DNA from: Streptomyces mobaraensis NBRC 13819 = DSM 40847
Lineage (GTDB): Bacteria > Actinomycetota > Actinomycetes > Streptomycetales > Streptomycetaceae
Assembly (NCBI RefSeq): GCF_017916255.1
Contig: NZ_CP072827.1
Span: 1,116,001 to 1,180,000 of the forward strand
Length of the DNA: 64,000 nucleotides
Reading direction: 5' to 3'
Part shown: in pieces, positions 5,268-22,536 of the stretch
Position numbering within the stretch: position 1 is the stretch's first letter
Layout: each line of letters opens with the position of its first letter
Position numbers and translations under genes: made by a program
The notes under the pieces: model-generated
The model's input: the letters and a program-made list of their open reading frames with translations, nothing else
What the model was told of the DNA's origin: nothing
Databases searched by the model: none

Positions 5268-5687
5268 TCACAGCGTGCGCAAGCCGTTGATCACCAGCCG
5301 GAGGATGCTCTCGTCGGGCGGTTCCGCCGGGGGGATCGGCCGGTCGACGCGGACGATGCCGGCTTCGAAGAGGTCGCCGACGAGGACGCGGACGACGCCG
5401 GAGGGGAGGCCGAGGCGGTCGGTGAGTTCCGCGACGGAGCGGGGGTCCTCGGCCGTGAGCTCCGCGATGCGGAGGTGTTCGGGGCCGAGCCGGTCGTCGG
5501 TGCCGTCGGGGGACCGCACGGCGATGACGAACGCCGTGCGGTCGAGCCGGTGCTGCCCGGCGCCCCGGGTGCGTCCACGGGTCATGGTGTACGGGCGGAC
5601 CACCGGGCCCGCCGCGTCGTCGTACCAGTGCTGCGGCTCTCCGGTCCTGTCAGGGGTCCCGCCGTCTCCGGCCCTCCGTCCGGTCAT
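5268..5687 (-). CDS. cvnC: Conservon protein CvnC (DUF742)
   Basis: A 139-aa DUF742 protein, the third component of Streptomyces conservons. These systems are membrane-associated complexes resembling eukaryotic G-protein-coupled signalling (CvnA sensor, CvnB roadblock, CvnC DUF742, CvnD GTPase). The N-terminus carries the usual VVRPYTMTRGRT motif, and the middle and C-terminus form the winged-helix-like part (PEHLRIAELTAEDPRSVAEL, then SGVVRVLVGDLFEAGIV). Its start overlaps the cvnB stop by 4 bp (ATGA at 5684-5687), so the two are translationally coupled. The next gene should be cvnD, but only a spacer and the convergent GH31 gene follow. Confidence 0.92.
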   Translation of the reverse strand: MTGRRAGDGGTPDRTGEPQHWYDDAAGPVVRPYTMTRGRTRGAGQHRLDRTAFVIAVRSPDGTDDRLGPEHLRIAELTAEDPRSVAELTDRLGLPSGVVRVLVGDLFEAGIVRVDRPIPPAEPPDESILRLVINGLRTL

Positions 5688-6133
5688 CCGCCGGCGGCCT
5701 CGCCGGTGCGCGGGGAGCTGGCCAGGTGGGCGCCGACGCGCTTGACGAGGAGGGTCATCTCGTAGGCGATCAGGCCGATGTCGGAGTCCGCTTCGGCGAG
5801 GACGGCGAGGGCGCTGCCCTGTCCGGCGGCGGTGACGAAGAGGAACGCGTCGTCCAGTTCGACGACGGTCTGGCGCACCTGTCCGGCGTCGAAGCGGCGG
5901 CCCACGCCCTTGGCGAGGCTGTGGAAGCCGGAGGCGACGGCGGCCAGGTGCTCGCCGTCCTCGCGGGTGAGGTCGGCGGAGGAGCCGACGGCGAGGCCGT
6001 CACCGGAGAGGACGAGGGCCTTGCGGATGGTGCCGACGCGCTCGACGAGGTCGTCGAGGAGCCAGTTGAGCTTGCCGTTGCCCGCGGGCTGTGCCGTGGC
6101 GGTGTCTGCCGACGCGTTGCGTATGGCGGTCAT
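5684..6133 (-). CDS. cvnB: Conservon protein CvnB (roadblock/LC7 domain)
   Basis: A 149-aa roadblock/LC7 protein. The domain spans about residues 20-135: LNWLLDDLVERVGTIRKALV, then LSGDGLAVGSSADL and the QTVVELDDAFLFVTAAGQ strand. In conservons this protein binds the other Cvn components and probably modulates a small Ras-like GTPase. Its ATG at 6133 overlaps the cvnA stop by 4 bp, and it in turn overlaps cvnC by 4 bp, so A-B-C form one coupled operon. The N-terminal 15 residues are a short disordered extension. Length and motifs are normal for the family. Confidence 0.93.
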   Translation of the reverse strand: MTAIRNASADTATAQPAGNGKLNWLLDDLVERVGTIRKALVLSGDGLAVGSSADLTREDGEHLAAVASGFHSLAKGVGRRFDAGQVRQTVVELDDAFLFVTAAGQGSALAVLAEADSDIGLIAYEMTLLVKRVGAHLASSPRTGEAAGG

Positions 6134-8991
6134 CGACCGTCCCTTTCGTTGGTGGTTCGTGTGCTGTCGTGCTCGGTGGGGTGCGGGGCGTCCGCCCGGC
6201 CGCGCTGCCATCCCCGTTGCAGGGACGTCATGCGGGCGCGGACCTCCTCGGGGTCGCGCGCGGTCTCGTGATCGGCCGGCTCGGCGGCGGTCCGGCGGGA
6301 TTCCCTGGCGAGGTTCTCCCGGACGAGGGGGGCGAGGCCGGCCTGGCGGACGCGGCGGGGCAGTCCGGTGGGCGGGGTGGGTTCGTCCAGGAGGTCCGGG
6401 AGGTTCGGAAGGTCCGGGAGGTCCGGGAGGTCCTGGCGATCCGGGATGCCCGAGGGTCCTGAGGGGCCCGGGCGATCGGAACGGTCCGAACGGTCGGCTC
6501 GATCGGCTGGGTCGGCTCGGTCCGCTCGGTCGCGGCGGTCCGTGGCGTCGGCGCGTTCGGCGCGGTCCGTGCGGTCGGCCACCGGGCGGCCGTGGTCCGA
6601 GACCAGCACCGGGGGCCGGGGGCGGCGCGGCAGCCCGCCGGGCGTTTCCCGGCCCGCCGTTCCGCGGCCGTCCGGGGTGCCGTGGGTGCCGGAGCCGGGG
6701 CGCCGGTCGGGGCCGCGGGAGCCGAACGCCGGGGCGGGGGCCGCGGGGCGGCGGGCGGGCGGCTGGTCGGCCGGGCGGTCGTGGACGGGCGCGTCGAGCG
6801 GAACCCGGGACTTCCAGGGCTCCCGCGGGGTGCGCGCGTCGAGGGGGCGGCGTGCGTCCCGCGGGCCGCGTGGCGCGAGCGGGGCGTCCGTGCCCAGCAG
6901 ATCAGCGCCCAGCGGACCGGCGCCCAGCGGGTCCGCGTCCACCGGGACCGCGTCCCGCACATCGAGTTTCTCGAGGGGCGAGAGCGGCGGCTCCAGCTCG
7001 ACCGGCCCGTCCTTGCGGGCCGCCTTCCGGGCCCGCGCCCCCGGGGCGGCGTCCTTCGGCGGCGCCTCGTCGAAGAGCGCGGCGGGGATCAGGACGACCG
7101 CGGTGGTGCCGCCGTAGGGCGAGGGCTGGAGCGAGACCCGCACGCCCTGGCGGCGGGCGAGCCGGCTGACGACGAACAGGCCGAGCCGGTCGGTGTCGGA
7201 GAGGTCGAACTCGGGCGCCTCCGCGAGGCCGAGGTTGGCCTCCAGCAGGGCGTCCGGGCTCATGCCGAGGCCGCGGTCGTGGATTTCGAGGGTGAAGCCG
7301 TTGGGCACCCGCTCGCCGACGACCTGCACGGCGGTGTGCGGCGGCGAGAAGACCGTGGCGTTCTCCAGGAGTTCCGCCAGCAGATGCGTCAGGTCGGCCA
7401 CGGCCGGGCCCTGGACGGCCAGCGGCGGCAGCCGGCGCAGCTCGATCCGCTCGTACGCCTCGACCTCGGAGACGGCGGCGCGGACGACGTCCATCAGCTG
7501 GACGGGCTTGCGCCACTGGCGGGAGGGGGTGGCGCCGGAGAGGATCACCAGGCCCTCGGCATGCCGGCGCATGCGCGTGGTGAGGTGGTCGAGGCGGAAG
7601 AGGTCGGCGAGTTCGTCGGCGTCCTCGGTGCGGCGCTCCATGGTGTCGAGCAGCGCGAGCTGACGGTGCAGCAGCACCTGGGAGCGGCGGGCGATGTTGA
7701 CGAAGACGTCCGACACGCCCCGGCGCATTTCGGCCTGTTTCACGGCGGCCTCGACGGCGGCGCGCTGGAGGGAGTTGAGGGCCCGGCCGACCTGGCCGAG
7801 TTCGTCGGGCGGGTACTCCAGGCGCGGCGCCTCGGTCTCGACGTCGACCTGTTCGCCGGCGGCGAGGCGGCGCAGGACGGCGGGCAGGCGGACGCCGGAG
7901 ACCTCGTGGGCCTCGCGGCGGAGCTGCCGGAGGTCCCTGACGAGTCCGCGGCCGACGCGCCAGGAGACGACGACCGAGCAGACGAGGGCGGCGAGGCCGA
8001 GCACGCCGGCGACGGCGGCCTTGGTGAGGACCCAGGTGGCGACGGGTTCCAGCCGGTCCTCGTGGCGTTCCTGCGCGTCGTGGCCGAGGCGGGCGAGGTC
8101 GTCGAGGACGGTGCCGGCGGTGGCCTGCCAGCGCTTGGTGTCGAGGGCGCGGAGGGCCTTGGCGGGTCCGGCGGAGACGACGGCCTCCTCGGTGCCCTTC
8201 AGCGTCCGGGGGCTGGTGCCCCGCCAGTAGTCGTCGTAGGTCTTCTGGTCCCGGGCGGGCAGGACGGGGAGGTTGGTCGCGTAGAGGATCCTGCGCTCGG
8301 CCATGCGGTCGGCGAGCAGGCGCAGTTCGCGGGCGCTGATGGTGCGGGCGGTGAGCGCGGCGGCGAGGAGGGCGTCCTCGCGGGACAGGGACTCACGGGC
8401 GTAGGTGAGGCCCACCAGGGCGCGGCGCTGCTGTTCGAGGCCGGCGTCCTGGACGGAGCCGAGGAGGCTGAGGAAGTCGAGGTGGGGGTCGATGACCTCG
8501 TTGTACGCGAGGAAGGCGGCGTCGCGGGTGACCGTGTCGCCCGCGACCCTGGCGCGCAGGGCGCCGAGTCCGGCGAGGCGGCGTTCCATGGTGCGGAACC
8601 AGTCGGCGGCGGTGGGGCTCATGTCCTCGCGCACGTCGCCGGAGGCGCCGGAGCGGAGGGCGGCGGCGGCCCTGTCGGTGGCGCGCTGGCGGGCGCGGAG
8701 TTCGGTGAGGGCGGCGGTACGGGCGCGGGCGGCGCCGGCGCTCCGGGAGCGGGGGCCGGCGAGGACGACGAGGGCCTGGCGGCGTTCCTTCTGGAGGGCG
8801 TCGACGACGGCCTCCGTGGGGTGGCCGATTCCGCGGGTGACCTCGGCGGCGGAGAGCAGGCGGTCCGCCTCCATGCCGGTGATGACCGTGGCGAACACCC
8901 AGAGGACGGTCAGGGACACCAAGGGCACCAGCAACAGTGCCACGATCTTCCGGCGGATCGATTTCCCGCGAAAGCGCATGGCCTCCCCCAC
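6130..8991 (-). CDS. cvnA: Conservon sensor kinase-like protein CvnA
   Basis: A 953-aa membrane histidine-kinase-like protein, first gene of the conservon. A membrane segment lies at about 16-37, an extracytoplasmic nitrate/nitrite-sensor-like helical domain at about 45-300, a second membrane segment near 320-342, then a HAMP-like linker and a helical region with ARRSQVLLHRQLALLDTME. The ATPase domain carries an N-box (LLENATVFSPP) near 540 and HDRGLGMSPD. The last ~280 residues are low-complexity, Arg/Asp/Pro-rich and built on short repeats (RADRAD…, DLPDLPDLPNLPDLL). The start is the GTG at 8991. The in-frame ATG at 8979 (MRFRGKS) is an alternative, although its GGGGGAGG lies too close. In the characterised paradigm CvnA signals through CvnB/C to a CvnD GTPase, which is missing here. 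Confidence 0.9.
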   Translation of the reverse strand: MGEAMRFRGKSIRRKIVALLLVPLVSLTVLWVFATVITGMEADRLLSAAEVTRGIGHPTEAVVDALQKERRQALVVLAGPRSRSAGAARARTAALTELRARQRATDRAAAALRSGASGDVREDMSPTAADWFRTMERRLAGLGALRARVAGDTVTRDAAFLAYNEVIDPHLDFLSLLGSVQDAGLEQQRRALVGLTYARESLSREDALLAAALTARTISARELRLLADRMAERRILYATNLPVLPARDQKTYDDYWRGTSPRTLKGTEEAVVSAGPAKALRALDTKRWQATAGTVLDDLARLGHDAQERHEDRLEPVATWVLTKAAVAGVLGLAALVCSVVVSWRVGRGLVRDLRQLRREAHEVSGVRLPAVLRRLAAGEQVDVETEAPRLEYPPDELGQVGRALNSLQRAAVEAAVKQAEMRRGVSDVFVNIARRSQVLLHRQLALLDTMERRTEDADELADLFRLDHLTTRMRRHAEGLVILSGATPSRQWRKPVQLMDVVRAAVSEVEAYERIELRRLPPLAVQGPAVADLTHLLAELLENATVFSPPHTAVQVVGERVPNGFTLEIHDRGLGMSPDALLEANLGLAEAPEFDLSDTDRLGLFVVSRLARRQGVRVSLQPSPYGGTTAVVLIPAALFDEAPPKDAAPGARARKAARKDGPVELEPPLSPLEKLDVRDAVPVDADPLGAGPLGADLLGTDAPLAPRGPRDARRPLDARTPREPWKSRVPLDAPVHDRPADQPPARRPAAPAPAFGSRGPDRRPGSGTHGTPDGRGTAGRETPGGLPRRPRPPVLVSDHGRPVADRTDRAERADATDRRDRADRADPADRADRSDRSDRPGPSGPSGIPDRQDLPDLPDLPNLPDLLDEPTPPTGLPRRVRQAGLAPLVRENLARESRRTAAEPADHETARDPEEVRARMTSLQRGWQRGRADAPHPTEHDSTRTTNERDGR
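6388..6436 (-). repeat. 9-bp tandem repeats in cvnA tail (DLP repeats)
   Basis: About five imperfect units of GAGGTCCGG/GAGGTTCGG encode a run of Asp-Leu-Pro triplets in the CvnA tail. A second, more degenerate array of CGGTCGG-type units at about 6476-6580 encodes the Arg-Ala-Asp repeats. Confidence 0.75.
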
Positions 8992-9407: not shown

Positions 9408-9773
9408 ATGGACAGGGTTCGCGACGGACGACGGCCGGACGGACGCCCACGGGCGCGCGCGCCGTTGTGGACCGAGGAGCCGGTCCACCGGCCGCGGATG
9501 CCCGACCCGGTGCGGGCGGCGGCGGTACGCGCCGTGCTCCTCGTCGCGCTGACGACGACGCTCGCCATGGCGGCGGTGCTGCTGACCCTCGCGGGGTCGT
9601 GGCTCGCCTTCCCGGTGCTGGTCGCCACGGTGGCCGGCACGGTCGCGACGACGTGGGGCGTCCTCGACGTGTGGGTGACGCGTCAGGTGTGGCGCCAGCG
9701 GCACGGGGTGGTGTCGGTGCCGAGCAGTACGGCACGGGAGATGCGGCGGATGCGGCGGCCCAGGTATCCGTGA
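9408..9773 (+). CDS. Small membrane protein, function unknown
   Basis: A 121-aa protein with a basic N-terminus (to residue 38), two closely spaced hydrophobic segments at about 39-62 and 66-88 (AVLLVALTTTLAMAAVLLTLAG; AFPVLVATVAGTVATTWGVL) and a basic cytosolic tail. A strong ribosome binding site (GGGGGAGGTGA, 7 bases before the ATG) supports translation. I do not recognise a family with a known function. It converges on the SMC-like operon, and a repeat element with two hairpins lies between the two stops, so transcription from both sides probably ends there. Confidence 0.75.
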   Translation: MDRVRDGRRPDGRPRARAPLWTEEPVHRPRMPDPVRAAAVRAVLLVALTTTLAMAAVLLTLAGSWLAFPVLVATVAGTVATTWGVLDVWVTRQVWRQRHGVVSVPSSTAREMRRMRRPRYP

Positions 9774-9783
9774 CGGGCTGGAC

Positions 9784-9885
9784 AGCCAGCCCGTCCGGCG
9801 TTTGAGGACAACCGCGCGGAGCGCGGTTTCGGGATCTGGGGCGGAGCCCCAGGAAACGGACCGGGGCACAGCCCGCCGCAGGCGC
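9784..9885 (+). repeat. Dispersed intergenic hairpin element, copy A
   Basis: Core CAGCCCGTCCGGCGTTTGAG, then hairpin 1 AACCGCGC-GGA-GCGCGGTT, hairpin 2 TGGGGC-GGA-GCCCCA, then the tail GGAAACGG…CCGGGGCACAG. It sits exactly between two convergent stops, as a bidirectional terminator would. Confidence 0.88.
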
Positions 9886-9890
9886 CCCCC

Positions 9891-12800
9891 TCAGCGCCCA
9901 GCCGGCACAGGCTCACGCTCCGACGGATCCTCCTCCGGCCGCCGGAACATCCGCGTAGCGGTGATCTCGCCGTGCACCGGCTCCGACTCCGGATCGGCCT
10001 GCGGCAGCCCGGGCCGCAGGTGCTCCTCGACGCTGATGTACTTCAGGCCCGCCCGCAGGTCCGCGTCGTTGCGCAACCGGATGACCAGCGGGAACTCGGC
10101 GAGCGCCGTGGTGTCGAACAGCCCGGTGGTGTACAGCAGCTGGACGCCGAGGGCGTCCGCGACGGCCCGCTGCAGCTCCAGCAGGTACGTCGCGTTGGCG
10201 CGGCCGATCGGGTTGTCGAGGAACAGCGTGCCCGCGTGCTTCTGCCGGTCCCGGCCGCGGTCGTTGCTGCGCAGCGCGGCCATCGTGCAGTACAGGGCGA
10301 TGGCGGCGGTCAGCAGCTGGCCGCCGGAGAAGACGTCGCCCATCTGCCCGACGGGCACCCGCTCGGCGCGCAGCACCGCGTCCGGCTTGAGGATCTCGAC
10401 GGCGACGCCGCGCGGCAGCAGGGCCGCCCGGACGCCCCGCAACAGCAGCGACATGCCGTCGCGGCGCAGGTCGGAGTTCTTCTTGACGGCGGACCGGGTG
10501 GCCTCGTCGATGACCTCGCCGAGGCGTTCGGTGAGGGTGCTCTGGTCCGGGTCCTCGAAGCGGATACGCAGGAACTCCTGGCCCGACCACTCCCCCAGCC
10601 CCTCGGGCAGCCGGGAGAGCCGCTGGGCGGAGCGGAGCGTGGTGAGCGAGGACTCGACGAGGCCGCGCAGCCGGTCGACGATCCCGTCGCGGTTGCGCTC
10701 CAACTGGTCGAGCTCGTCGGTGAGGACGCGCAGCCGGGGCGCGAAGGCGTCGGCCCAGGCGGCGGCGTGCTCGGGCAGCGCGGACGCCGGGAGTTCGCGG
10801 ATCTGCTGCCGGGCGGGGGTGCGGACCTGCTCGTAGCGCGTGGAGTTGGCGTGCCGGACGAGGACGTCGCTGGCCTCGCGGACGGCCGCCTCGGCCGCCG
10901 AGAGGTCGCCTGCGCAGCCGCGCAGCGAGCGCCGGGCCTCGGCGGCGGCCTGCCGGGCCTCCTCCAGGGTGCCGGTGTACGGCTCGGGGGCCGTCTCCTC
11001 GTCGTCGGGGGCGTTGTCGCGGAGCAGGTCGCGCAGGAGGGCGGCGGTGTCGTCGAAGCCGCCGGCGGCGTCCTCGGCGGCGCGGTGCGAGCGGAGCAGG
11101 CTCGCGTGGGCGGTCCTGGCCTCCTCCAGCGCGTCGGTGTGCGCGGTGAGTTCGGCGGTGGCGGTGCGCAGCAGTTCCTTGGCCTGGTCGGCGTCGGCGG
11201 GCACCCGCTCGTCGGGGAGCTCGGTGTGGGCCTCGCCGTCGGCGGGGGCGAGGCGTTCGGCCTCGCCGCGGAGCCGGCCGAGCTGCTCGCTGGCGGCGGA
11301 GGCGCGGCCTTCGAGCAGTTGGACGAGGGCCTCGGCGCGGGCGGCGGCGGCCTGCCGGGACGGGCCGTCGGCGCCTTCGGTGCCCTCCAGCAGCTGGGCG
11401 GCGCGGGTGCGGACCTTGTTGGTGAGGCGGTCGAGTTCGGCGCGGGCGGCGCTCTCGTCGCTCTCGGCGCGGGCCTGTTCGGCGCGCAGGTCGGCGCCGA
11501 CGCCGACCTTCTCGTACACCTGGGATGCGGCCCGGTACGCCTCGCGGAGGGCGGGCAGCGAGTCGGTGGACGCCTCGGCGTCGTCGGGCACGTCGTCCGG
11601 GGCGCCGGCGATCTCGGCGCGCTCGGCGCGCAGGGCGCGGGCGGTGCGGTGGGCGTCGTCGGCGGCGCGCTGGGCGGCGCGGCGGTCCTCGTCGGCGGCG
11701 CGGGCGCGGTCGACGCAGGCGGCGGCGCGCTCCTCGTACTCGGCGGCCTCCTCGGCGAGTTCACGGAGCCGGGTCTGCCAGTGGGCGCGTTCGCGGAGCC
11801 GGTGGGCGAGGCCCGCCAGGGCGTCGGCGACCCGGCGGGCCCGCTGGGCGGCCTCCTGCCGCTCGTCGCGGACCCGGGCGGTCTCGGCGGCGGTCTCGTC
11901 GGCCTCGGCGCGGGCGGTCCGGGCGGCGGTCAGCTCCTCCTGGGCCGTCTCGGCGGCGGTACGGCAGCGTTCGGCCTCGGCGGCGAGCTCGGCGAGCCGG
12001 CCCTCGGGGCAGCCGGACCGCCAGGAGGCGAGGCGGGCGGCGAGGGCGCGGTCGCCGGCGAGCCGGGCGGCGACGGCGCGGATCTCCTCGTCGCGGGCGG
12101 CGGCGCGCTCGCGGAGGGCGTGCCGCTCCTCGTCGGCGGCCCGTTCGTCGTGCATGGCGGGGTTCGGCGGGACGAGGAAGACGCCACTGTCGCCGTCGGT
12201 CTCGGGTACGGGCGCGAGGAGGGCGGCGGCGGTGCCGACGGCGACCGCGGAGCGCGGCAGCAGCGAGGCGTCGGCCAGGGCCTCGCGGGCGCGGCCGTGG
12301 GCGTCCGGGTCGGTGATGACGACGCCGTCGACGAGCTCGGGGCGGGCGGCCAGGACCCGGGCGTGCTCGGCGGGGTCGACGGCCTGGGCGAGGTAGCGCC
12401 AGCCGGGGAGGGCGGGGATGCCGTGCTCGCCGAGGAACTCGACGGTGGCGAGGACGTCCGGGCCGGCCGGGAGCAGGCCGCCGTCGCCGAGGGCGCCGAG
12501 GATGCGGGAGTCGTCGGCCGCGGCGGTGCGCAGGTCGAACAGCTGCCGCTCGGCGGCGGCGACGGTGTCGTCCAGCAGCTCGCGGAGGGCGTCCGCGTTG
12601 CGGTCCAGCTCCTCGGCGGTGAGCGGGCCCGCCGCCTTGCCGGGTCCCTCGGTGCCGCGCTGGGCCGGGACCTGGCCGACGGCGCCCGGCTGCGGCAGGC
12701 CGAGGAGTTCGGCGAGCCGCGGCTCGGCGCCGAGGGACTCGGCGAGGCGGCGCTCGGCGTCGTACGCGCCGGCGGCGGCCGTGGCCGCGTCGGCGGAGCG

Positions 12801-14534
12801 GGCGGCGGCCAGTTCGGCGCGGGACTCGGCGGCGGCCGTCTCCCGCGCCCGGTCGGCGGCGGTCCGGGCGGTGTCCCGGGCGGTCTCGTACGCGGCCGTG
12901 GCGGTCTTCTCCGCGTCGCTGGCGGCGAGGGCGGCGCGGGCCGGGTCGGCGTCGGGGGCGCTGTCGTCGAGCCAGCCCGCGCGGACGGCGTCGGCGGTCT
13001 CCTGCTCGACCTCGGCCAGCCGCTGCCGCAGGTGGCCGGCCTCGCTGCGGGCGCGCTGGGCCTCGGTGGCGGCGGCGGTGGCGTCGCGGTGGGCGGCCTC
13101 GCCGGTCTCCTGGAGGACCACCGACCGCTGTTCCTGCTCCTCGGCGAGGCGTTCGCCCTGCTCGGCGGCGGCGTTGAGGGCGCGGACGAGGGCGGCGGCG
13201 GCCCGGGTGCGGGCGGCGAGGGCGGGCGCGGCGTCGCGTTCGGCCTCGTGGATGGCGGCGGCGACGCGGGCGGAGCGGTCGGCGGCGGCCCGGTGCCGCA
13301 GCACGGTCTCGGCGGCCTGCCAGGCGGAGTGCAGGGTGCGGGCGTCGTTGAGCTCGCGGCGCTGGGCGGCGGCGGCCTTCTCGGCGGCGGCGAGCGCCAG
13401 GGAGGCGTGCCGGTAGGCGAGTTCGGCGGCGATCCGGGAGGCGTGCTCGCGGGCGGTCTCGGCGTCGGTGACGCGGTGCGCGGCGGCGGCCACCTGCTCG
13501 GCGAGCTCGGCGGCCCGGCCGCGCTCCTCGGCGGCGCGCGCGGAGAGCCGGCGGGCGAGGACGCGGGTGCGGCGCTCGGCGCCGGCGTGCACGCCCCGCG
13601 CCTGGTCGCGGCGGGCGCCGGACTCGACGATGCGGGAGAGCAGGTCGAGGGAGCCGGCGGTGAAGTCGCGTTCCGCGGTGAGCTCGGCGCGCCGGCCGAG
13701 CTTGTGGGCGAAGCCGTGGACGAGGTCGGCGAGGCCGTCGGTGTCCCGGGTGTCGGTGACGGCGCGCAGCAGCAGGTCGGTGAAGTCGGAGTCGTTCTTG
13801 ACCGCGAAGAGGCCGGCGGCCTCGCCCTCGTCGGCGTTCATCTCCCGCTGGTAGCGGAAGAGTTCGGGGTCGAGGCCGAGCTCGCCGAGGTGCTCGTTCC
13901 AGCGCTCGTGGATCTCCTCCCAGACCACGTCCAGGTTGGGGTACGCCTTGCCGGCCTCGGTGAGGGCGTCGCGGAACCCCTTCATGGTGCGGCGGCGGCC
14001 ACGGGCCGTGGAGGCGCCCTCGGCGCGCGGGCGCAGGGCGGTCGACTCGGCGACCGGCAGCGCGTCCAGGCTCATCCCCGGGCCGGGACGGAACGAGTAC
14101 CACGCCTCGGCGAACTTCCGCGGGTCGTTGGAGACCTGACGGCCGCGCCACTCGCTGACCTTGCCGACGACGACCGTCTCACCGGTGAGGACGTGCTGCC
14201 ACTCCAGGGCGACGTGCCCGCAGTCGTCGGCGAGCAGGAACTTGCGGAGCACGCCGGAGCTGGCGCCGCCGAGCGTGTTGCGGTGGCCCGGCAGCATCAC
14301 CGAGAAGATCAGCTTGAGCAGGACGGACTTGCCGCCGCCGTTCTCCAGGAAGAGCACGCCCGCGGGCGCGGGGCGGCGCGGCGGGCCGACGGGCTCCTCC
14401 TCGAAGAAATCCGCCTGCGCGGGCGCGGGCGACGGCACGGGCGCGCCCACCCCCCGCAGGTCCAGCACGGTGTCGGCGTAGCGCGCACCGGCGGGCCCGA
14501 TGGAGTAGAGGCGGACCCGGGACAGCTCGTACAT
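9891..14534 (-). CDS. SMC/MukB-like coiled-coil ATPase
   Basis: A 1547-aa protein with ABC-type ATPase halves at its two ends and about 1100 residues of Ala/Glu/Arg-rich coiled coil between them. Near the N-terminus the Walker A motif is ENGGGKS (64-70), followed by LLKLIFSVMLPGHRNTLGG. Near the C-terminus are the ABC signature FSGGQLLTAAIALY (about 1400) and Walker B LFLDNPIG (about 1436), with Asn where SMCs usually have the catalytic Glu. A globular interruption of the coil (about 650-820) may be the hinge. The architecture is that of MukB/MksB/JetC. The ATG at 14534 opens the MYELSRVRLYSIGPAG head motif. It is the last gene of the operon, 46 bp after the KITE-like gene. The family branch is uncertain: the head does not look like the well-known Wadjet JetC sequences. 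Confidence 0.85.
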   Translation of the reverse strand: MYELSRVRLYSIGPAGARYADTVLDLRGVGAPVPSPAPAQADFFEEEPVGPPRRPAPAGVLFLENGGGKSVLLKLIFSVMLPGHRNTLGGASSGVLRKFLLADDCGHVALEWQHVLTGETVVVGKVSEWRGRQVSNDPRKFAEAWYSFRPGPGMSLDALPVAESTALRPRAEGASTARGRRRTMKGFRDALTEAGKAYPNLDVVWEEIHERWNEHLGELGLDPELFRYQREMNADEGEAAGLFAVKNDSDFTDLLLRAVTDTRDTDGLADLVHGFAHKLGRRAELTAERDFTAGSLDLLSRIVESGARRDQARGVHAGAERRTRVLARRLSARAAEERGRAAELAEQVAAAAHRVTDAETAREHASRIAAELAYRHASLALAAAEKAAAAQRRELNDARTLHSAWQAAETVLRHRAAADRSARVAAAIHEAERDAAPALAARTRAAAALVRALNAAAEQGERLAEEQEQRSVVLQETGEAAHRDATAAATEAQRARSEAGHLRQRLAEVEQETADAVRAGWLDDSAPDADPARAALAASDAEKTATAAYETARDTARTAADRARETAAAESRAELAAARSADAATAAAGAYDAERRLAESLGAEPRLAELLGLPQPGAVGQVPAQRGTEGPGKAAGPLTAEELDRNADALRELLDDTVAAAERQLFDLRTAAADDSRILGALGDGGLLPAGPDVLATVEFLGEHGIPALPGWRYLAQAVDPAEHARVLAARPELVDGVVITDPDAHGRAREALADASLLPRSAVAVGTAAALLAPVPETDGDSGVFLVPPNPAMHDERAADEERHALRERAAARDEEIRAVAARLAGDRALAARLASWRSGCPEGRLAELAAEAERCRTAAETAQEELTAARTARAEADETAAETARVRDERQEAAQRARRVADALAGLAHRLRERAHWQTRLRELAEEAAEYEERAAACVDRARAADEDRRAAQRAADDAHRTARALRAERAEIAGAPDDVPDDAEASTDSLPALREAYRAASQVYEKVGVGADLRAEQARAESDESAARAELDRLTNKVRTRAAQLLEGTEGADGPSRQAAAARAEALVQLLEGRASAASEQLGRLRGEAERLAPADGEAHTELPDERVPADADQAKELLRTATAELTAHTDALEEARTAHASLLRSHRAAEDAAGGFDDTAALLRDLLRDNAPDDEETAPEPYTGTLEEARQAAAEARRSLRGCAGDLSAAEAAVREASDVLVRHANSTRYEQVRTPARQQIRELPASALPEHAAAWADAFAPRLRVLTDELDQLERNRDGIVDRLRGLVESSLTTLRSAQRLSRLPEGLGEWSGQEFLRIRFEDPDQSTLTERLGEVIDEATRSAVKKNSDLRRDGMSLLLRGVRAALLPRGVAVEILKPDAVLRAERVPVGQMGDVFSGGQLLTAAIALYCTMAALRSNDRGRDRQKHAGTLFLDNPIGRANATYLLELQRAVADALGVQLLYTTGLFDTTALAEFPLVIRLRNDADLRAGLKYISVEEHLRPGLPQADPESEPVHGEITATRMFRRPEEDPSEREPVPAGR

Positions 14535-14580
14535 GGCGGACTCTCGTTTGTCTTCGTCGCAGATCGGTGGGCGGGAACGG

Positions 14581-15480
14581 TCAGGAGTGGAACGGCAGGC
14601 CGGCGTCGGCGACCAGCTCCAGGTCCTCGGCGTCGTCCGGCGGCAGCAGCGTGGCGGTGCCGTCGCCGACCGGGACGACGCCCAGCTCCAGCAGCTCGGC
14701 CATGGCGGCGCTGCCGGCCATGTCACGGACCTGGAGCTGGTAGCGCGGCGTGGTGCGGTAGGCGCCGCCGGCGTCGTCGCCGGTGCGCTGGAGGAAGCCG
14801 GAGTCGACGAGGAAGGCGACGGCCTTGGCGATGATGCCCGTGGTGGAACCGGCCAGCCGGCGGGCGTCCTTGGTGGCGCCGGTGGCGCTGCGCCGCGCGT
14901 AGACCCGCCAGGCGGCCTCCAGGCCGGGGGCCTCGGTGACCGGGTCGGTGTTCTCCCCCGTCTCGGCCGCCCGCTCCTCCAGCCGGCGGCACGCCTGCCG
15001 GACGAACGCGTCGACGCCGTTGACGGTGATCCGGCCGATGTACCCGTCGTCGGCCAGGTCCTCGGGCCGGGGGAACGCCATGGCGGCGACGGCGAGGTGG
15101 GCGAGGCCGTGCAGGAAGCGGTCGCCGGAGTCGGCGGTGGCCCGGCGGGCGTAGTCGCTTATGCGGACGGCGAAGACGGAGTCCTCGGCGGCGGTGACGG
15201 CCATGCCGGCCCGCGTCGAGACCTCCAGCACGACCAGCCCGAGCCCGGCGGCGACGGCGTCGGCGAGCCGCGCGAAGGCGGGGTCGTCGCGGTGGCGGCG
15301 CAGGAGTTCGGCGTAGTCGGCGTCGCGGGCGGGCTGGAGCTTGGGCTGGAGCCCGAAGGATACGAGCCTGGCGGCGTCGGCGGCGTCGGCGGGGGTCAAC
15401 GGCGCGTTGACCGGGCGCTCCGGCTCCGCGGCGGGCGCTTCCGGGTACGCCGCCGTCTCGTCGGGTTCGTAGTCGGTCAC
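14581..15480 (-). CDS. MukE/KITE-like partner of the SMC-like ATPase
   Basis: A 299-aa protein. An acidic, disordered N-terminus (to 35) is followed by a mostly helical region and then what looks like a winged helix (GSTTGIIAKAVAFLVDSGFLQRTG…AYRTTPRYQLQVRDMAG) at about 215-280. The position between a kleisin-like and an SMC-like gene, the size and the winged-helix pattern match MukE/JetB-type KITE subunits, but sequence similarity alone is not decisive. The start is GTG at 15480 with AGGAG 8 bases upstream. The gap to the ATPase gene is 46 bp. A 277-bp intergenic region containing two repeat elements separates it from the gene before it, which is unusual inside a complex-encoding operon. Confidence 0.65.
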   Translation of the reverse strand: MTDYEPDETAAYPEAPAAEPERPVNAPLTPADAADAARLVSFGLQPKLQPARDADYAELLRRHRDDPAFARLADAVAAGLGLVVLEVSTRAGMAVTAAEDSVFAVRISDYARRATADSGDRFLHGLAHLAVAAMAFPRPEDLADDGYIGRITVNGVDAFVRQACRRLEERAAETGENTDPVTEAPGLEAAWRVYARRSATGATKDARRLAGSTTGIIAKAVAFLVDSGFLQRTGDDAGGAYRTTPRYQLQVRDMAGSAAMAELLELGVVPVGDGTATLLPPDDAEDLELVADAGLPFHS

Positions 15481-15520
15481 GGTCGGTGCTCCTGTGCGTT
15501 GTGGCTGGTCTTCGGGGAGG

Positions 15521-15757
15521 GGTGCCCCGGCCCCGCCCCTTCTCCGATTCCTGGGGGCACGCCCCCAGCCCCCCTGAAAGCGGCTTCGCCGCTTGTCCTC
15601 AAACGCCGGACGGGCTGAAGTGCGGGCTCAGGCCGGATCCAGCCCGTCTGGGGGCACCCCCTCTGGGGGAGTTTGAGGACAGCGCGCGCAGCGCGCTTCG
15701 GGGGCGCGGGGGCGCAGCCCCTGCAAGAAACGGTGAAAGGGCGGGGCCGGGGCACAC
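15521..15757. repeat. Dispersed intergenic element, head-to-head pair (copies B1, B2)
   Basis: B1 (15521-15620) reads leftward and B2 (15639-15757) rightward. B1 hairpins: AAGCGGC-GAA-GCCGCTT and TGGGGGC-GT-GCCCCCA. B2 has AGCGCGC-GCA-GCGCGCT and GGGGC-GCA-GCCCC. In B2 the core is altered: CCGTCTGGGGGCACCCCCTC plus TGGGGGAG replaces CCGTCCGGCG before TTTGAGGAC. The pair fills the gap between the first two genes of the SMC-like operon. Confidence 0.88.
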
Positions 15758-17356
15758 TCACGACGCCTCCGACCGGTCCGCCGCCATACCCGCCGCATCC
15801 AGCAGCGCAGTGCCCACAATGAGGTCGGCTCCACCGAACTCCGGATCGTCCAGAACCGTCCCGTCGTCCACGGCGAAGAGCAGCGACCGCTCCCCCTGCC
15901 GATAGGCGGTCCCGACGGCCGGGCTCGCCGCGTGGACCGCCAGCAGAGCGACCAGGTACGGCAGTTCCGGATCCCGCCGCCGCGCCTCGGCGAGCAGTCC
16001 GGACAGCCGCCGCGGAGCGTCCGGCGGCAGCGTCAGCAACTCCATGGCGTGAGCGAGCTGCTCCTCGCTGAACCGGCTGTCGTCCGGCGTCGCGATGAGG
16101 TCCGGCTCCGGCATCTCCGCGCCGAGGTGCTCCCGTTCCGCGGGCGGCGTCAGCAGCAGGTCGACGAGGTCGCCGACGCGGACGGACGCCGGGGTGCGCA
16201 GGCCCGTGCCGCGCGCGAAGAAGGCGTCGGTGACGCGCCCCGCCTGTTCGAGCGGGAGCGGCAGGACGGGGGCGAGGAGCTGCCCGTAGAGGTCGAGGCC
16301 GGCGCCGGCGGACGGCGTGGCGAACGCCTGCCGGTCCTGCTCGGCGCGGAACAGCGGGCCGGCCTCCAGTAGCCGCGACTGGAGCTGGGTGTGGCGGCGG
16401 ATGCAGTCCTTGACGATGTCGACGAGCTCGGCGGCGCGCCGCTTGTGCTCGGGGTCGACGCCGGTGGACGCCTCGTCGCGGACCTTGCGGATGTTGGTGA
16501 GGATCGCGTTCTCGTGCCGGTAGCGCTCGGCGACGTGCTGCAGCGCCTCGTCGATCATGTCCGGGACGGTGCGCAGCCAGTCGACCGCGCGGACGTTGCG
16601 CCGGGTGGCGTCGAGGGTCTTGCGGAGCGTCTCGGCGTACTGGACGGTGCGGTAGCGGGCCTGTTCGGCGGCGAGCTGGGCGTCGGCGAGCCGGCCCCGG
16701 CTGACGAGCACCTCCAGTTTGACCTCGGCGGCGATCTGCGCGCTGGTGACGTCCGTGTCGAGGGCGCCGACGAGGACGTTGACGGCCTCGTCGGTGGTGC
16801 GCAGGAAGACCGTGCCGCCGGGGCCCGGGACCTCCTCGATCAGCTTGAAGTCGTAGTCGCGGCGCACGTAGGCGCCGTCCGTGCCGAACGTCCCGTAGAC
16901 GGCGCGGAAGCCGCGGTCGACGCTGCCGACGTTGACGAGGTTCTCCAGGACCCACCGGGCGACGCGCTCGTGCTCGGCGGCGGGGCGCTCGGGCGCCTGG
17001 GCGGCGACGCGCGGCAGCAGCCGGGCCACTATCTGCTCGTGGTCGGCGCCGGTGTCGAAGTCCATGGTGAGGGTGACGAGGTCGATGGCGGCCAGGGCCA
17101 CCTCGGCCATCGCGTAGACGCCGTACTCGCCCGCGAGGTTGGCCTTGCGGACGTCGAGGTCGTGCAGCGGCGCCGTGCAGGCGAGCGCGCGCAGGCGGCG
17201 GGCCAGCCCCTCGTCGGCGGCCGGGCCCGGGGCGACGGGGCCCCCGGCTCGGGCATGGCCGGGAGCTCGGGTGGGCGCGGGCCCGTTGAGCTGGGGCGGA
17301 ACGGCCGCCGGGGCTGGAGAAGTCACGTCGCACAGCGTAGGCGGTCGGTCTGACAT
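15758..17356 (-). CDS. MukF/kleisin-like partner of the SMC-like ATPase
   Basis: A 532-aa largely helical protein and first gene of the operon. A disordered Pro/Ala N-terminus (to about 55) leads into a conserved block (LDVRKANLAGEYGVYAMAEV), a central helical/coiled region (QIAAEVKLEVLVSRGRLADAQLAAEQARYR; EHKRRAAELVDIVKDCIRRH) and a C-terminal segment that may be another winged helix. This matches the size and secondary-structure pattern of MukF/MksF/JetA kleisins, an assignment made mainly from context and architecture. Start choice is open: ATG 17356 is used here, GTG 17371 lies just upstream, and GTG 17326 sits 7 bases after a TACGCT -10-like hexamer and could be a leaderless start. None has a good ribosome binding site. 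It diverges in function from the permease genes upstream; no JetD/MksG nuclease gene is adjacent. Confidence 0.6.
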   Translation of the reverse strand: MSDRPPTLCDVTSPAPAAVPPQLNGPAPTRAPGHARAGGPVAPGPAADEGLARRLRALACTAPLHDLDVRKANLAGEYGVYAMAEVALAAIDLVTLTMDFDTGADHEQIVARLLPRVAAQAPERPAAEHERVARWVLENLVNVGSVDRGFRAVYGTFGTDGAYVRRDYDFKLIEEVPGPGGTVFLRTTDEAVNVLVGALDTDVTSAQIAAEVKLEVLVSRGRLADAQLAAEQARYRTVQYAETLRKTLDATRRNVRAVDWLRTVPDMIDEALQHVAERYRHENAILTNIRKVRDEASTGVDPEHKRRAAELVDIVKDCIRRHTQLQSRLLEAGPLFRAEQDRQAFATPSAGAGLDLYGQLLAPVLPLPLEQAGRVTDAFFARGTGLRTPASVRVGDLVDLLLTPPAEREHLGAEMPEPDLIATPDDSRFSEEQLAHAMELLTLPPDAPRRLSGLLAEARRRDPELPYLVALLAVHAASPAVGTAYRQGERSLLFAVDDGTVLDDPEFGGADLIVGTALLDAAGMAADRSEAS

Positions 17357-17410
17357 CGGGCGAAACGGCACGGGGGCAGGGGCCCGTGCGCCGGTCCGGC
17401 CCCCGTCCGC

Positions 17411-18391
17411 TCACACCGCGAATAGGTACATGATGGTCATATTGCACCCGAGCAGGATGAATGCCGTGGGCAGTTGGGCCTTGATGGGGCCGTACTGGTC
17501 CGTGAGTTCGAGCAGGGCCGCCGGGACGAGGTTGTAGTTGGCGGCCATCGGCGTCACGAGGGTGCCGCAGAAGCCGGCCAGCATGCCGACGGCGAGCACG
17601 GCCGGGGCGTTCCCGTGCGCCTGCTCGACGAGGACCGGCCAGCCGACCGCGGCGGTCATCACCGGGAACGCGGCGAAGCCGTTGCCCATGACGACGGTGA
17701 ACAGGAACATCCCCGCGCAGTAGACGACGACCGCGAGGAGCACGGACCCCTCGGGGAGCACCGCCGTGGTGATCCGGCGCACCTGTTCGCCGACCCCGGC
17801 GACGGAGAAGATCGCGCCGAGGGTGGCGAGCAACTGCGGCAGCAGCAGCGCCGAGCCCATCGATTCGAGCATCGAGCGCCCGGCGGCCACCGGCTCGGCG
17901 GGCCGCCGCTCGCGGACCAGGACCATGCCGACCACGAGCGCGACGACGGCGCCGATGCCGAGCCCGAGGATGGTCTCGCTGCCCTTCTGGAGCAGCGGCT
18001 GCCCGTTCCAGCGCGCCTTCTTGAGGCCGACGGCGCAGACCAGGGCGACGGCGGGGATGGTGAGGGCGGGGATGAACAGCCGGCCGCCGAAGCGGTCGGC
18101 GCTCTTCCGGCGCCGCACGGCCTCCTCCTCGGCCGCCTCGGCGGACCGGACGCCCCGGCCGGTCCGGCCGAAGCCCGCCAGGCAGATCATGACGAGGACG
18201 GCGGCGCCCAGCGGTTCGGGGGGCGCGCTGCCGTCCGCCACCCAGGTCGCGTAGCCGAAACCGAGGCCGAGCAGGCCCCAGAAGGCGGCGCTGCCGCGGC
18301 GCTTGGGGTTGGTGCGGTCGGTGAGCATCTGGGCGGCCATCAGCAGGAAGAGGCCGCCGACGAGCCAGAAGAACCATTCAGCCTTGATCAT
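17411..18391 (-). CDS. DUF979 membrane protein (probable 5-oxoproline permease subunit)
   Basis: A 326-aa integral membrane protein with about nine hydrophobic segments, starting MIKAEWFFWLVGGLFLLMAAQ and containing the conserved MGNGFAAFPVMTAAVGWP and GTLVTPMAANYN stretches of DUF979. Its ATG overlaps the DUF969 stop by 4 bp, so the two subunits are coupled and probably form one permease. DUF969/DUF979 pairs repeatedly neighbour pxpABC, as here, and have been proposed as the 5-oxoproline carrier. That role is context-based. The GntR/pxp operon is divergent and shares the 304-bp promoter region. Confidence 0.88.
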   Translation of the reverse strand: MIKAEWFFWLVGGLFLLMAAQMLTDRTNPKRRGSAAFWGLLGLGFGYATWVADGSAPPEPLGAAVLVMICLAGFGRTGRGVRSAEAAEEEAVRRRKSADRFGGRLFIPALTIPAVALVCAVGLKKARWNGQPLLQKGSETILGLGIGAVVALVVGMVLVRERRPAEPVAAGRSMLESMGSALLLPQLLATLGAIFSVAGVGEQVRRITTAVLPEGSVLLAVVVYCAGMFLFTVVMGNGFAAFPVMTAAVGWPVLVEQAHGNAPAVLAVGMLAGFCGTLVTPMAANYNLVPAALLELTDQYGPIKAQLPTAFILLGCNMTIMYLFAV

Positions 18392-19188
18392 CGGCCACCC
18401 TCCCGGGTGCGGTCGGAGCCGGTTCCGCGGACGTCCGGCGGAGGCGCGGCGGCCGACGGCACGGCGGCGGATGACGCGATGGCGGACGACGCGGCGCCTT
18501 TCGCCCCCGGCGCCCCCGTCGCCCCCGCATCGAGCAGCGTCCGGTCCAGCCGCAGCAGCCGCCAGCCGTGCACGGCCAGGGCGCAGACGGCCGTCGGGAT
18601 CGCCCAGAGCGCGAGGTCCAGCGGCTCCAGCCGCGTGTGGTAGGTGGTGTTGACGAAACCGGTGATGAGCAGGATGGAGCCGACGGCCAGGAAGACGTCC
18701 TCGCCGAAGAAGAAGCCGACGTTGTCGGCGCTCGCGGCGAAGGAACGTATCCGCTCCCGGACCCTCGCGGGCAGCGGCCCGCCGTGCCGGCGCTCGGCGG
18801 CCCCCTCGGCCATCGGGGCGGCCAGCGGAAGCACGGTCTGCGCGTGCCCGAAGGCGCCGGCCAGCCCGATCGCGGCGGTGAGCTGGCGGAGCAGCAGGTA
18901 GAGCGCCAGGAAGCGGCCGGTGGTGAGCCCGGCGAAGCGGGCGATCAGCCGGCGGGCCTGGATCTGGAGTCCGTGGCGTTCCAGGAGGCCGATGACCGGC
19001 AGGGTCACCGCGAAGATCGTCACGCCTCGGCTGGAGGCGAAGCCGGTGCCGAAGGCCGCCAGCACCTCGCGCGGCGAGAGGCCGCCGAGCAGACCGGTGG
19101 CGGTGCCGGCGACACCGACCACCAGCAGGGGGTTGCGCCGGGTGGCGAATCCGGCCACGACCACGAGGACGCCCAGGAGTACGAGCAT
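18388..19188 (-). CDS. DUF969 membrane protein (probable 5-oxoproline permease subunit)
   Basis: A 266-aa membrane protein with about six hydrophobic segments. It begins MLVLLGVLVVVAGFATRRNPL and carries the DUF969 blocks SSRGVTIFAVTLPVIGLLERHG and SADNVGFFFGEDVF. The last 45 residues are a low-complexity Ala/Ser/Pro tail outside the family domain. It is the first gene of the permease pair, reads away from the GntR/pxp operon and overlaps DUF979 by 4 bp (18388-18391). With its partner it is the likely importer of pyroglutamate for the PxpABC enzyme next door. Confidence 0.88.
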   Translation of the reverse strand: MLVLLGVLVVVAGFATRRNPLLVVGVAGTATGLLGGLSPREVLAAFGTGFASSRGVTIFAVTLPVIGLLERHGLQIQARRLIARFAGLTTGRFLALYLLLRQLTAAIGLAGAFGHAQTVLPLAAPMAEGAAERRHGGPLPARVRERIRSFAASADNVGFFFGEDVFLAVGSILLITGFVNTTYHTRLEPLDLALWAIPTAVCALAVHGWRLLRLDRTLLDAGATGAPGAKGAASSAIASSAAVPSAAAPPPDVRGTGSDRTREGGR

Positions 19189-19329
19189 GGGCCCCGCCTT
19201 CCGTTTGCTTCGCGTTGCTTCGCGGATGTCGTTTCGCAGGGTCGAGCCCGCCCGTTCCCCGCTCGACGTGAGCTCGACGTGAGCTCGACGGAACCCGACG
19301 GAGCTCGGCGGAGGTCAACGGGAGAAAGC

Positions 19330-19358
19330 GTGAACCGACTTGCCGAGGAGGCTAAGAT
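19330..19358 (+). promoter_or_regulatory. Candidate promoter of the GntR-pxpABC operon
   Basis: GTGAAC (19330-19335), a 17-bp spacer, then TAAGAT (19353-19358). Expected start of transcription is near 19365, inside the operator palindrome. Confidence 0.45.
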
Positions 19359-19359
19359 G

Positions 19360-19370
19360 TTGTTCAACAA
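19360..19370. promoter_or_regulatory. GntR/FadR-type operator palindrome
   Basis: TTGTTCAACAA is a perfect 5+1+5 palindrome in an otherwise GC-rich region. It lies between the permease genes and the GntR gene, at the predicted transcription start. FadR/FCD GntR regulators bind TTGT-ACAA-like sites, so autoregulation and control of both operons is plausible. Confidence 0.6.
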
Positions 19371-19492
19371 TCCTCAAGGGTTTGCGCGCGGCCTTCACCG
19401 GTGATCCGCCACGTCCGCCGGGTCAGCCGGGTCCGCCGCGCCGCTCCCCGTCCCACGAGCACACGCCGGTCACCCCCTCCCCGGGAGAAGCC

Positions 19493-20137
19493 ATGGCCCG
19501 TTCCACCGCGCAGCGCGTCTCCACCGTGCTCCGCGACCGCATCGAGGGCGGCGTCCTGCCGCCCGGCACCCAGCTCTCGGAAGAGGCCCTCGGCCAGGAC
19601 CTGGGCGTCTCGCGCAACACCCTGCGCGAGGCGTTCCGCCTCCTCGTCCACGACAACCTCGTCGAACACCAGTTGAACCGGGGGGTGTTCGTCCGCTCCC
19701 CCGGCCCGGCGGACGTGGCCGACATCTACCGGCTGCGGGCCGCCCTGGAACTCGCCGGGGTACGCGCCGCCGGCCAGGCCCCCCGCGCGCTGCGCGAGGC
19801 CGTCACGGCCGCCGTGGCGGAGGCCGAATGGGCGGCCGACGACGGCGACTGGCCCGCGGTCGCCTCCGCCGACCTGCGCTTCCACCGCGCCCTGGCCGGA
19901 CTCAGCGGCAGCCCGCGGATCGACACCACGATGGACCGGCTGCTCGCCGAACTCCGGCTCGCGTTCCACGCGATGCCGTCGCCGCGCGGCTTCCACCAGC
20001 CGTTCCTGATCCGCAACCGCACCATCGAGCGGTTCCTCGCCGAGGAGCGGTACGACCGCGCCGAAGCCGAACTGACCACCTATCTGGACGACGCCCGGCA
20101 GCTCATCGTCGACACGATGCTGGAGAACCGCCCATGA
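19493..20137 (+). CDS. GntR-family regulator of the pxp module (FCD type)
   Basis: A 214-aa regulator. An N-terminal winged helix (about 5-70: RIEGGVLPPGTQLSEEALGQ, LGVSRNTLREAFRLL) is followed by a helical FCD ligand-binding domain (about 75-205, with DLRFHRALAGLSG and conserved His residues that usually bind a metal and a carboxylate effector). ATG 19493 has GGGAGAA just upstream. Its stop overlaps the pxpA start by 4 bp, so regulator and enzyme genes are one transcript. 5-Oxoproline or another small carboxylate is the obvious effector candidate. The palindrome at 19360-19370 is the likely binding site. Confidence 0.9.
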   Translation: MARSTAQRVSTVLRDRIEGGVLPPGTQLSEEALGQDLGVSRNTLREAFRLLVHDNLVEHQLNRGVFVRSPGPADVADIYRLRAALELAGVRAAGQAPRALREAVTAAVAEAEWAADDGDWPAVASADLRFHRALAGLSGSPRIDTTMDRLLAELRLAFHAMPSPRGFHQPFLIRNRTIERFLAEERYDRAEAELTTYLDDARQLIVDTMLENRP

Positions 20138-20904
20138 CGCACCCCGCTCCCGCCCTCGACCTCAACGCCGACCTCGGGGAGGGCTTCGGCCGCTGGCGGC
20201 TGACCGACGACGAGGCCCTGCTGTCCGTCGTCACCAGCGCCAACGTCGCCTGCGGCTTCCACGCGGGCGACCCCTCCACCATGCGGCGCGTCTGCGAACA
20301 GGCCGTCGCCCGCGGCGTCCGGATCGGCGCCCAGGTCTCGTACCGGGACCTGGCCGGCTTCGGCCGCCGCGCCATGGACGTCCCGCCGGACGAACTCGCC
20401 GACGAGATCACCTATCAGATCGGCGCGCTGCGGGTGTTCGCCCGCGCGGCCGGCGGCGACGTCGCCTACGTGAAACCGCACGGCGCCCTCTACAACCGCG
20501 CGGTCACCGACGCGGACCAGGCGAACGCCGTGGTCGCGGGCGTGCTGCGGGCGGGCGGGCGACTGCCCGTCCTGGGCCTGCCCGGGTCCCGGCTGCTCGC
20601 GGCGGCGGAGGAGGCCGGACTCCCCACCGCCGCCGAGGCGTTCGCCGACCGCGCGTACACCGCCGTCGGCACGCTCGTCCCGCGCCGCCAGGAGGGGGCG
20701 GTCGTCACCGACGAGGAGGCCGTCGTGGCCCGGTCCGTCCGGCTCGCCCGGGACGCCGCCGTCACCGCGCTGACCGGTGAGGAGGTCGCCGTCCGGGCCC
20801 GCTCGCTCTGCCTGCACGGCGACACGCCCGGCGCGGCGGCACTGGCCCGGCGGGTGCGGGCGGCGCTGGAGGCGGCGGGCGTCCGGCTGGAGGCGTTCGC
20901 GTGA
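20134..20904 (+). CDS. pxpA: 5-oxoprolinase subunit A (LamB/YcsF family)
   Basis: A 256-aa LamB/YcsF protein, component A of the bacterial ATP-dependent 5-oxoprolinase PxpABC, which opens 5-oxo-L-proline to L-glutamate in the cytoplasm. Family motifs are clear: LDLNADLGEGFG (about 7-18), SANVACGFHAGD, GAQVSYRDLAGFGRR, VKPHGALYN and the C-terminal SLCLHGDTPGA. It overlaps the regulator upstream (ATGA) and pxpB downstream (GTGA at 20901-20904). Length is normal (~250). Together with pxpB, pxpC and the DUF969/DUF979 pair this is a complete uptake and catabolism unit. Confidence 0.95.
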   Translation: MTHPAPALDLNADLGEGFGRWRLTDDEALLSVVTSANVACGFHAGDPSTMRRVCEQAVARGVRIGAQVSYRDLAGFGRRAMDVPPDELADEITYQIGALRVFARAAGGDVAYVKPHGALYNRAVTDADQANAVVAGVLRAGGRLPVLGLPGSRLLAAAEEAGLPTAAEAFADRAYTAVGTLVPRRQEGAVVTDEEAVVARSVRLARDAAVTALTGEEVAVRARSLCLHGDTPGAAALARRVRAALEAAGVRLEAFA

Positions 20905-21539
20905 CCGCCCTCCGGGACGAGGCGCCGCGCCCGCTGCGCGTCGGGCGGCACGCGCTGCTGGTCGAGGTCGCCGGCACCGCAGCCGCCCAGGCCCTCCACG
21001 CCGAACTGCTGCGCCGCCGCGCGGCCGGCACCCTGCCGCCGGTCACCGAGATCGTCCCCGCCGCGCGCACGGTCCTGCTCGACGGCCTGGACGATCCGGG
21101 CGCCCTCGCGGCCGATCTCGCCGGCTGGACCGTGCCGCCGCTGCCGCCCGCCGACGGCGAACCCGTCGTGATCCCGGTGCGGTACGACGGCGAGGACCTC
21201 GCCGAGGTGGCCGCGCTCTGGGGCGTCGGCGCGGCGGAAGTGGCGGGCGTCCACTCCTCGTTCGACTTCCGCGTCGCCTTCTGCGGATTCGCCCCCGGTT
21301 TCGGCTATCTGACCGGCCTGCCACCGGAGTTGCACGTGCCGCGCCGGGCCACCCCGCGCACCGCCGTCCCCGCCGGTTCCGTCGCGCTGGCCGGGCCGTA
21401 CACCGGCGTCTACCCACGCTCCTCCCCCGGCGGCTGGCTGCTCGTCGGCCGGACGGACGCGGTGATGTGGGACCCGGGCCGCGAACCGGCCGCGCTGCTC
21501 GCCCCCGGCACCCGGGTCCGCTTCGAGGTGCTCCGATGA
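20901..21539 (+). CDS. pxpB: 5-oxoprolinase subunit B (KipI-like)
   Basis: A 212-aa KipI/PxpB family protein. The N-terminal half carries a conserved VGRHALLVEV start, and the C-terminal half the signature HSSFDFRVAFCGFAPGFGY, LPRRATPRT-like PRRATPRTAVPAGSVALAG and YPRSSPGGWLLVGRT. With PxpC it forms the ATP-dependent part of 5-oxoprolinase. The start is GTG overlapping the pxpA stop. Its own stop overlaps the pxpC start (ATGA, 21536-21539), a chain of couplings expected for a stoichiometric complex. Confidence 0.95.
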   Translation: MTALRDEAPRPLRVGRHALLVEVAGTAAAQALHAELLRRRAAGTLPPVTEIVPAARTVLLDGLDDPGALAADLAGWTVPPLPPADGEPVVIPVRYDGEDLAEVAALWGVGAAEVAGVHSSFDFRVAFCGFAPGFGYLTGLPPELHVPRRATPRTAVPAGSVALAGPYTGVYPRSSPGGWLLVGRTDAVMWDPGREPAALLAPGTRVRFEVLR

Positions 21540-22420: not shown

Positions 22421-22536
22421 TCCAGCCCGTCCGGCGTTTGAGGACCTCGCGGCGCAACCGCGATGCGGGGTCGGGGGCGCGGCCCCGGAGGAAACGGTGA
22501 GAGGGAAACGGTGAGAGGGAGGGACCGGGGCACGAC
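22421..22536 (+). repeat. Dispersed intergenic hairpin element, copy C
   Basis: Core CCAGCCCGTCCGGCGTTTGA then GGAC, hairpin 1 TCGCGG-CGCAA-CCGCGA, a GGGG/CCCC hairpin around 22470-22487, and a tail in which GAAACGGTGAGAGG is duplicated in tandem. It lies between convergent pxpC and the glycosyltransferase. Confidence 0.85.

Follow-up and report, generated by a model that had tools for sequence, protein, structure and literature searches.

A nuclease-free JetABC operon related to Wadjet type III is conserved across Streptomycetaceae and may encode a second condensin

SMC complexes of one architecture serve both immunity and chromosome maintenance, which a review has called a paradox (PMC10586767). 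According to the same review, Wadjet is thought to extrude DNA, with JetD cutting once extrusion of a circle is complete, and MukBEF has replaced Smc in its hosts. In the actinobacterium Corynebacterium glutamicum, plasmid control depends on MksG, the nuclease of the MksBEFG system, which interacts with the kleisin (PMC10123090). In a DefenseFinder survey, 42% of actinobacterial genomes had Wadjet, and the Streptomyces systems were mostly located towards the ends of the chromosome (PMC10482375). The accessible part of a 2026 paper on SMC in Streptomyces treats SMC and a mycobacterial Mks, not the operon described below (PMC13121528); mycobacterial MksB, called a condensin in work cited there, is a possible precedent for a chromosomal role. 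Among open-licence PMC papers we found no description of nuclease-free JetABC in Streptomyces.

Here we describe a three-gene operon from Streptomyces mobaraensis NBRC 13819 = DSM 40847. The window, meaning the whole stretch of DNA analysed, comprises 64,000 nt (NZ_CP072827.1, 1,116,001-1,180,000, forward strand), and feature coordinates are window positions. The jetA-like, jetB-like and jetC-like genes lie on the minus strand at 9891-17356 in the order A-B-C, in the following setting:

15758-17356 (stop included), minus strand: jetA-like gene, MukF/JetA-type kleisin, 532 aa
14581-15480, minus strand: jetB-like gene, MukE/JetB-type KITE (winged-helix) subunit, 299 aa, GTG start
9891-14534, minus strand: jetC-like gene, SMC/MukB-like ATPase, 1547 aa, assigned from PADLOC JetC3, motifs and composition
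9408-9773, plus strand: small convergent ORF downstream of jetC, 121 aa, a neighbour without a Pfam match
5268-8991, minus strand: conservon genes adjoining the operon (sensor kinase with NIT and HATPase_c, roadblock, DUF742; Pfam PF08376, PF02518, PF03259, PF05331)
9790-9809, 15595-15614, 22426-22445, 45180-45199, 50015-50034, 52684-52703, 61538-61557 and 61568-61587: dispersed 20-base element

The jetA-like frame would encode 537 aa if an upstream GTG at 17371 were used as the start. We regard the conservon genes and the 121-aa ORF as neighbours of the operon and candidate parts of it at most. Window positions 17411-21539 hold genes for DUF979 and DUF969 membrane proteins, a GntR regulator, LamB/YcsF and the carboxyltransferase CT_C_D, which we take to be probably a cluster for 5-oxoproline uptake and hydrolysis. 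The 20-base element has eight matches in the window with at most three mismatches, for a chance expectation of 0.03; one copy falls within the 277 bp that separate jetA from jetB, and a second lies downstream of jetC at a distance of ∼80 bp.

The original prediction, made from the sequence by itself, was of a three-subunit SMC/KITE/kleisin operon, and this was borne out. The jetC-like protein has JetC3 as its best profile relative (PADLOC PDLC00588, 1419 bits) and the jetA-like protein matches JetA3 (PDLC00567, 613.5 bits), which points to the presence of both the JetC3-type ATPase and the JetA3-type kleisin of Wadjet type III. The 299-aa jetB-like protein of the window has no PADLOC match; a second-copy homologue from another genome, 48% identical to it, matches JetB3 weakly. 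In its AF2 model (pLDDT 75), the top four Foldseek rows are MukE-MukF and JetABC entries, the best at E=7.3e-4 and with low TM-scores, and the predicted fold of the jetA-like protein matches JetA and MukF entries, so that the anticipated KITE and kleisin likeness of the small proteins was found. Both folds can be assigned with moderate confidence, and fold together with gene order indicates a probable JetB3-type KITE subunit. NCBIfam and Pfam gave nothing above the curated cut-offs for any of the three proteins, including no SMC match from Pfam, and searches of PDB sequences returned no match for JetC (phmmer) or JetA (profile search). Membership of the ATPase in the RecN/SbcC/Rad50 repair families was considered and rejected, given the JetC3 score and the lack of any such Pfam or NCBIfam match. 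The expectation that the head would be unlike the Wadjet JetC families proved wrong, as the head is that of JetC3.

Along its chain JetC is rich in Ala and Arg at ∼301-600 and ∼801-1250 and richer in Gly and Pro at ∼600-800; on our reading, this would correspond to an N-terminal head (∼1-300), a coil, a hinge-like region (∼600-800), a second coil and a C-terminal head (∼1300-1500). The predicted motifs are all present, with Walker A ENGGGKS at residue 64, the signature FSGGQ at 1402 and Walker B LFLDNPIG at 1437, and at 19 of 21 nuclease-free core loci they can be read and are intact; in the remaining two (L093, L103) jetC is split by frameshifts and the C-terminal motifs alone were aligned. 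An Asn at the position of the usual catalytic Glu of Walker B had been singled out in the window's protein. It is indeed there, but it is not distinctive, since LDNP occurs in all 41 JetC rows compared, 21 from core loci and 20 from JetD-bearing loci. This suggests slow or unusual ATP hydrolysis across the type III family.

The nuclease is what the operon lacks. No JetD was found in window bases 1-34000 at E ≤ 10 with an HMM of 20 JetD sequences, in agreement with the predicted absence of an adjacent JetD, and a genome-wide search of the 7.57-Mb genome with three models gave 0 matches: PF09983 (E ≤ 10), PDLC00594 (E ≤ 0.001) and our own JetD alignment (E ≤ 10), for which the JetD of the positive-control genome (G007) scores 2.6e-107. 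The HMM at E ≤ 10 found JetD in 0/21 core loci (the window and L091-L110) and in 20/20 divergent Streptomycetaceae loci (L013, L014, L073-L090). The 20 loci that it scores also served to build this HMM, which then detected JetD in 8 of 80 named loci as well. Sixteen of the comparison loci were chosen via JetA, and all 16 of these assessable second-copy JetABC loci end in JetD; the other four (L087-L090) were chosen via JetD itself and carry it, 4/4. The operon cannot be counted as a Wadjet type III (JetABCD) system, because neither it nor its own genome contains JetD. It resembles that system (PDLC00567, PDLC00588, PDLC00594) in its homologous kleisin, KITE and ATPase, its A-B-C order and its LDNP motif, but it is without JetD, core, mostly single copy and partly syntenic, whereas Wadjet is patchy.

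Nuclease-bearing relatives occur in some of the same genomes. One Streptomyces genome (G007) carries both the nuclease-free core operon and a paralogue in which a divergent JetABC (JetA 52%, JetB 48% and, over the best 299-residue piece, JetC 48% identical to those of the window) is followed by a 396-aa JetD3 protein (PDLC00594, 366.6 bits). Strong JetD3 matches (PDLC00594, E < 1e-40) were found in 14/199 genus genomes and any PDLC00594 match in 28/199. The 14 further Streptomyces genomes have weak partial matches (e.g. G012:C1:2564112-2564393), 12 of which fall in open frames 394-533 aa long; they may represent JetD from different Wadjet types, or else some further Toprim proteins. If the 111 genomes surveyed for JetA fall inside the set of 199, as their handles imply, the ten with a divergent second JetA are exactly the ten with a strong JetD. 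Two genomes hold such genes in duplicate near both chromosome ends, JetA in G105 (C1:8876-10297 and 9228837-9230258) and JetD in G166 (C1:66624-67625 and 8038764-8039765), as if the JetD-bearing Wadjet copies were located within terminal inverted repeats.

The nuclease-free operon itself is close to universal in the genus. Core-type JetA (at least 81% identity) was present in 25/25 genomes of a first sample and in 108/111 of a larger one, with 107/108 for genomes of good quality; two of the three genomes with no JetA match are 78-82% complete and the third is in 1140 contigs. Across the family, JetA matches were found in 100/101 Streptomycetaceae genomes and 17/17 genera, the exception being a genome in 670 contigs (G279). 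The core type (at least 73% identity) accounts for 99/101 genomes and 16 of the 17 sampled genera; G223 has no core type, its sole JetA being 27% identical and followed by JetD (L086). NG dN/dS against four relatives was 0.10-0.17 for JetA, 0.20-0.26 for JetB and 0.22-0.35 for JetC, ratios that indicate purifying selection on jetABC; because of these values and the JetA homologues in 108/111 genus genomes, we take the three frames to be real genes. In a sample of 26 single-contig genus genomes with a match plus one main contig (G023), with sizes partly rounded, jetA lies at a median of 15% of the chromosome length from an end, and 20/27 fall at 10-21%. The operon is mostly single copy and the core locus is partly syntenic: the 121-aa convergent ORF is kept in 15/21 core loci, and greedy gene calls, which undercount neighbours (jetB itself was called in 11/21), placed a kinase-type conservon cluster at 11 and a DUF742-type cluster at nine. 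The DefenseFinder survey presumably demanded the full Wadjet gene set, and would therefore have passed over this operon.

Outside the family the distribution is less even. An Amycolatopsis JetA matched 16 of 148 genomes of the class, namely 11 of Streptomyces and five of one other family, Frankiaceae, and the best protein matches to one Frankiaceae JetA were named Frankia and Pseudofrankia. JetA is patchy in Frankiaceae (19/35 genomes). The same JetD HMM detected JetD in two of 21 Frankiaceae loci (L234, L235); among the remaining 19, JetD is absent from ten in which jetC is complete and followed by 1.2 kb or more, jetC is matched over a short length in two (L211, L238), and contig ends truncate seven. 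One genome (G463) harbours both the nuclease-free and the JetD-bearing kind. The named loci form a biased sample, being the 80 that rank highest among 457 in similarity to a single query; eight have JetD, 58 lack it although jetC is there with 2.6 kb or more of downstream sequence, and 14 are not assessable. The 58 comprise 53 from Streptomycetaceae, four from Pseudonocardiaceae and one from Cellulomonas.

In a JetA tree, the 16 rows of the Streptomycetaceae core group with the 11 nuclease-free Frankiaceae rows in a single clade (support 97/92), nested among JetD-bearing rows, with five label changes. The JetC tree also recovers the core as a clade (100) but places Frankiaceae in a mixed group (98) apart from it, with four label changes. 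The outgroup consisted of six rows of our choosing, all with JetD. We consider loss of JetD the likelier direction of change, the alternative being loss followed by regain; a weakly congruent JetD tree agrees with loss. No JetA column was found that is conserved but switched between nuclease-free and nuclease-bearing rows, and hence no remodelled JetA interface is visible.

We put at about an even chance the explanation that the operon is a Wadjet-III-derived JetABC that has lost its nuclease, been kept in Streptomycetaceae and become a second condensin beside Smc. Canonical Smc is encoded in the same genome by a separate gene at 5.40 Mb (935.7 bits), so that jetABC is a second SMC-type complex; the canonical condensin-type chromosome organiser of this cell is Smc-ScpAB. 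With an SMC-like ATPase, a MukF-like kleisin, a MukE-like KITE subunit and no nuclease, JetABC has the make-up of MukBEF/MksBEF and should work like them. It resembles MukBEF of Escherichia coli in the predicted folds of its small subunits, which match MukE and MukF entries, and in having no nuclease, but MukBEF replaced Smc in its hosts (PMC10586767), whereas Smc is also present here. The C. glutamicum MksBEFG, which we compared by description, is another actinobacterial complex in which an SMC-like ATPase is joined by a kleisin and a KITE-type subunit, yet it includes the MksG nuclease and has an MksB of 1111 aa (PMC10123090). Together with its kleisin and KITE partners, the ATPase would extrude DNA loops, like Wadjet and MukBEF. 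Since the motor has been kept and the nuclease is absent, loop formation without cutting is to be expected: at the end of extrusion there would be no nuclease to fire, and the outcome would be compaction and organisation of DNA, with JetABC serving as a condensin additional to Smc-ScpAB, perhaps in many-genome hyphae and during spore formation. We infer this cellular role, and favour a chromosomal job, because of the core presence of the operon.

Such wide conservation is also compatible with anti-plasmid work. Further points against the condensin reading are the few genomes that lack the core type, the frameshifted loci, the absence of switched JetA columns, the patchiness in Frankiaceae and their position apart from the core in the JetC tree. 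JetABC may still be a defence directed at incoming DNA circles (plasmids, excised integrative elements), which it would silence or compact without cutting, as proposed for Smc5/6 on extrachromosomal DNA; according to a review, Smc5/6 could compact such circles and thereby keep them from being expressed (PMC10586767). Its nearest relatives are anti-plasmid Wadjet systems, but strong JetD3 is patchy in the genus (14/199) where this operon, at a partly syntenic locus, is found in 108/111 genomes. Defence genes are not usually so constant, and for that reason we consider silencing of incoming DNA weakened and rather unlikely. More doubtful still is the idea that JetABC belongs to a full defence system with an effector gene at another locus, or with an effector of a kind unrelated to JetD, such as another host nuclease or a topoisomerase. 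MukB binds topoisomerase IV (PMC10123090), and an unlinked or JetD-unrelated effector would be invisible to the searches used; against this, the own genome has no JetD homologue, strong JetD travels with the divergent copy in the sampled genus genomes, and by eye no neighbour is obviously common to the Streptomycetaceae loci and three Frankiaceae loci.

Decay after nuclease loss is a further explanation, to which the broken frames of a few loci lend some colour: jetC is interrupted by frameshifts in L093, L103 and L145, and jetB as well in L103 and L145, through either assembly error or decay. A decaying remnant is nevertheless disfavoured and very improbable, given the intact motifs in 19/21 core loci, the low dN/dS ratios and the core type in 16/17 sampled genera. 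Core status without a nuclease suggests instead a defence machine turned permanent chromosome organiser. Stated in full, this would be an immune motor that was disarmed when Streptomycetaceae lost JetD, with Frankiaceae and Pseudonocardiaceae losing it either in the same event or separately, and that is now the permanent second condensin of filamentous sporulating actinobacteria, with an armed and patchy copy kept in some genomes; we judge its chance to be a little short of even.

A nuclease-free JetABC that is core in a major model group, and that some of its genomes carry alongside a nuclease-bearing paralogue, amounts to a natural experiment. If the role is against plasmids, it would represent Wadjet-like activity without cleavage. 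If instead the motor has been disarmed, it would document the conversion of an SMC machine from defence to housekeeping, with both states in one cell, and if the role is chromosomal, Streptomyces would have a second condensin besides Smc.
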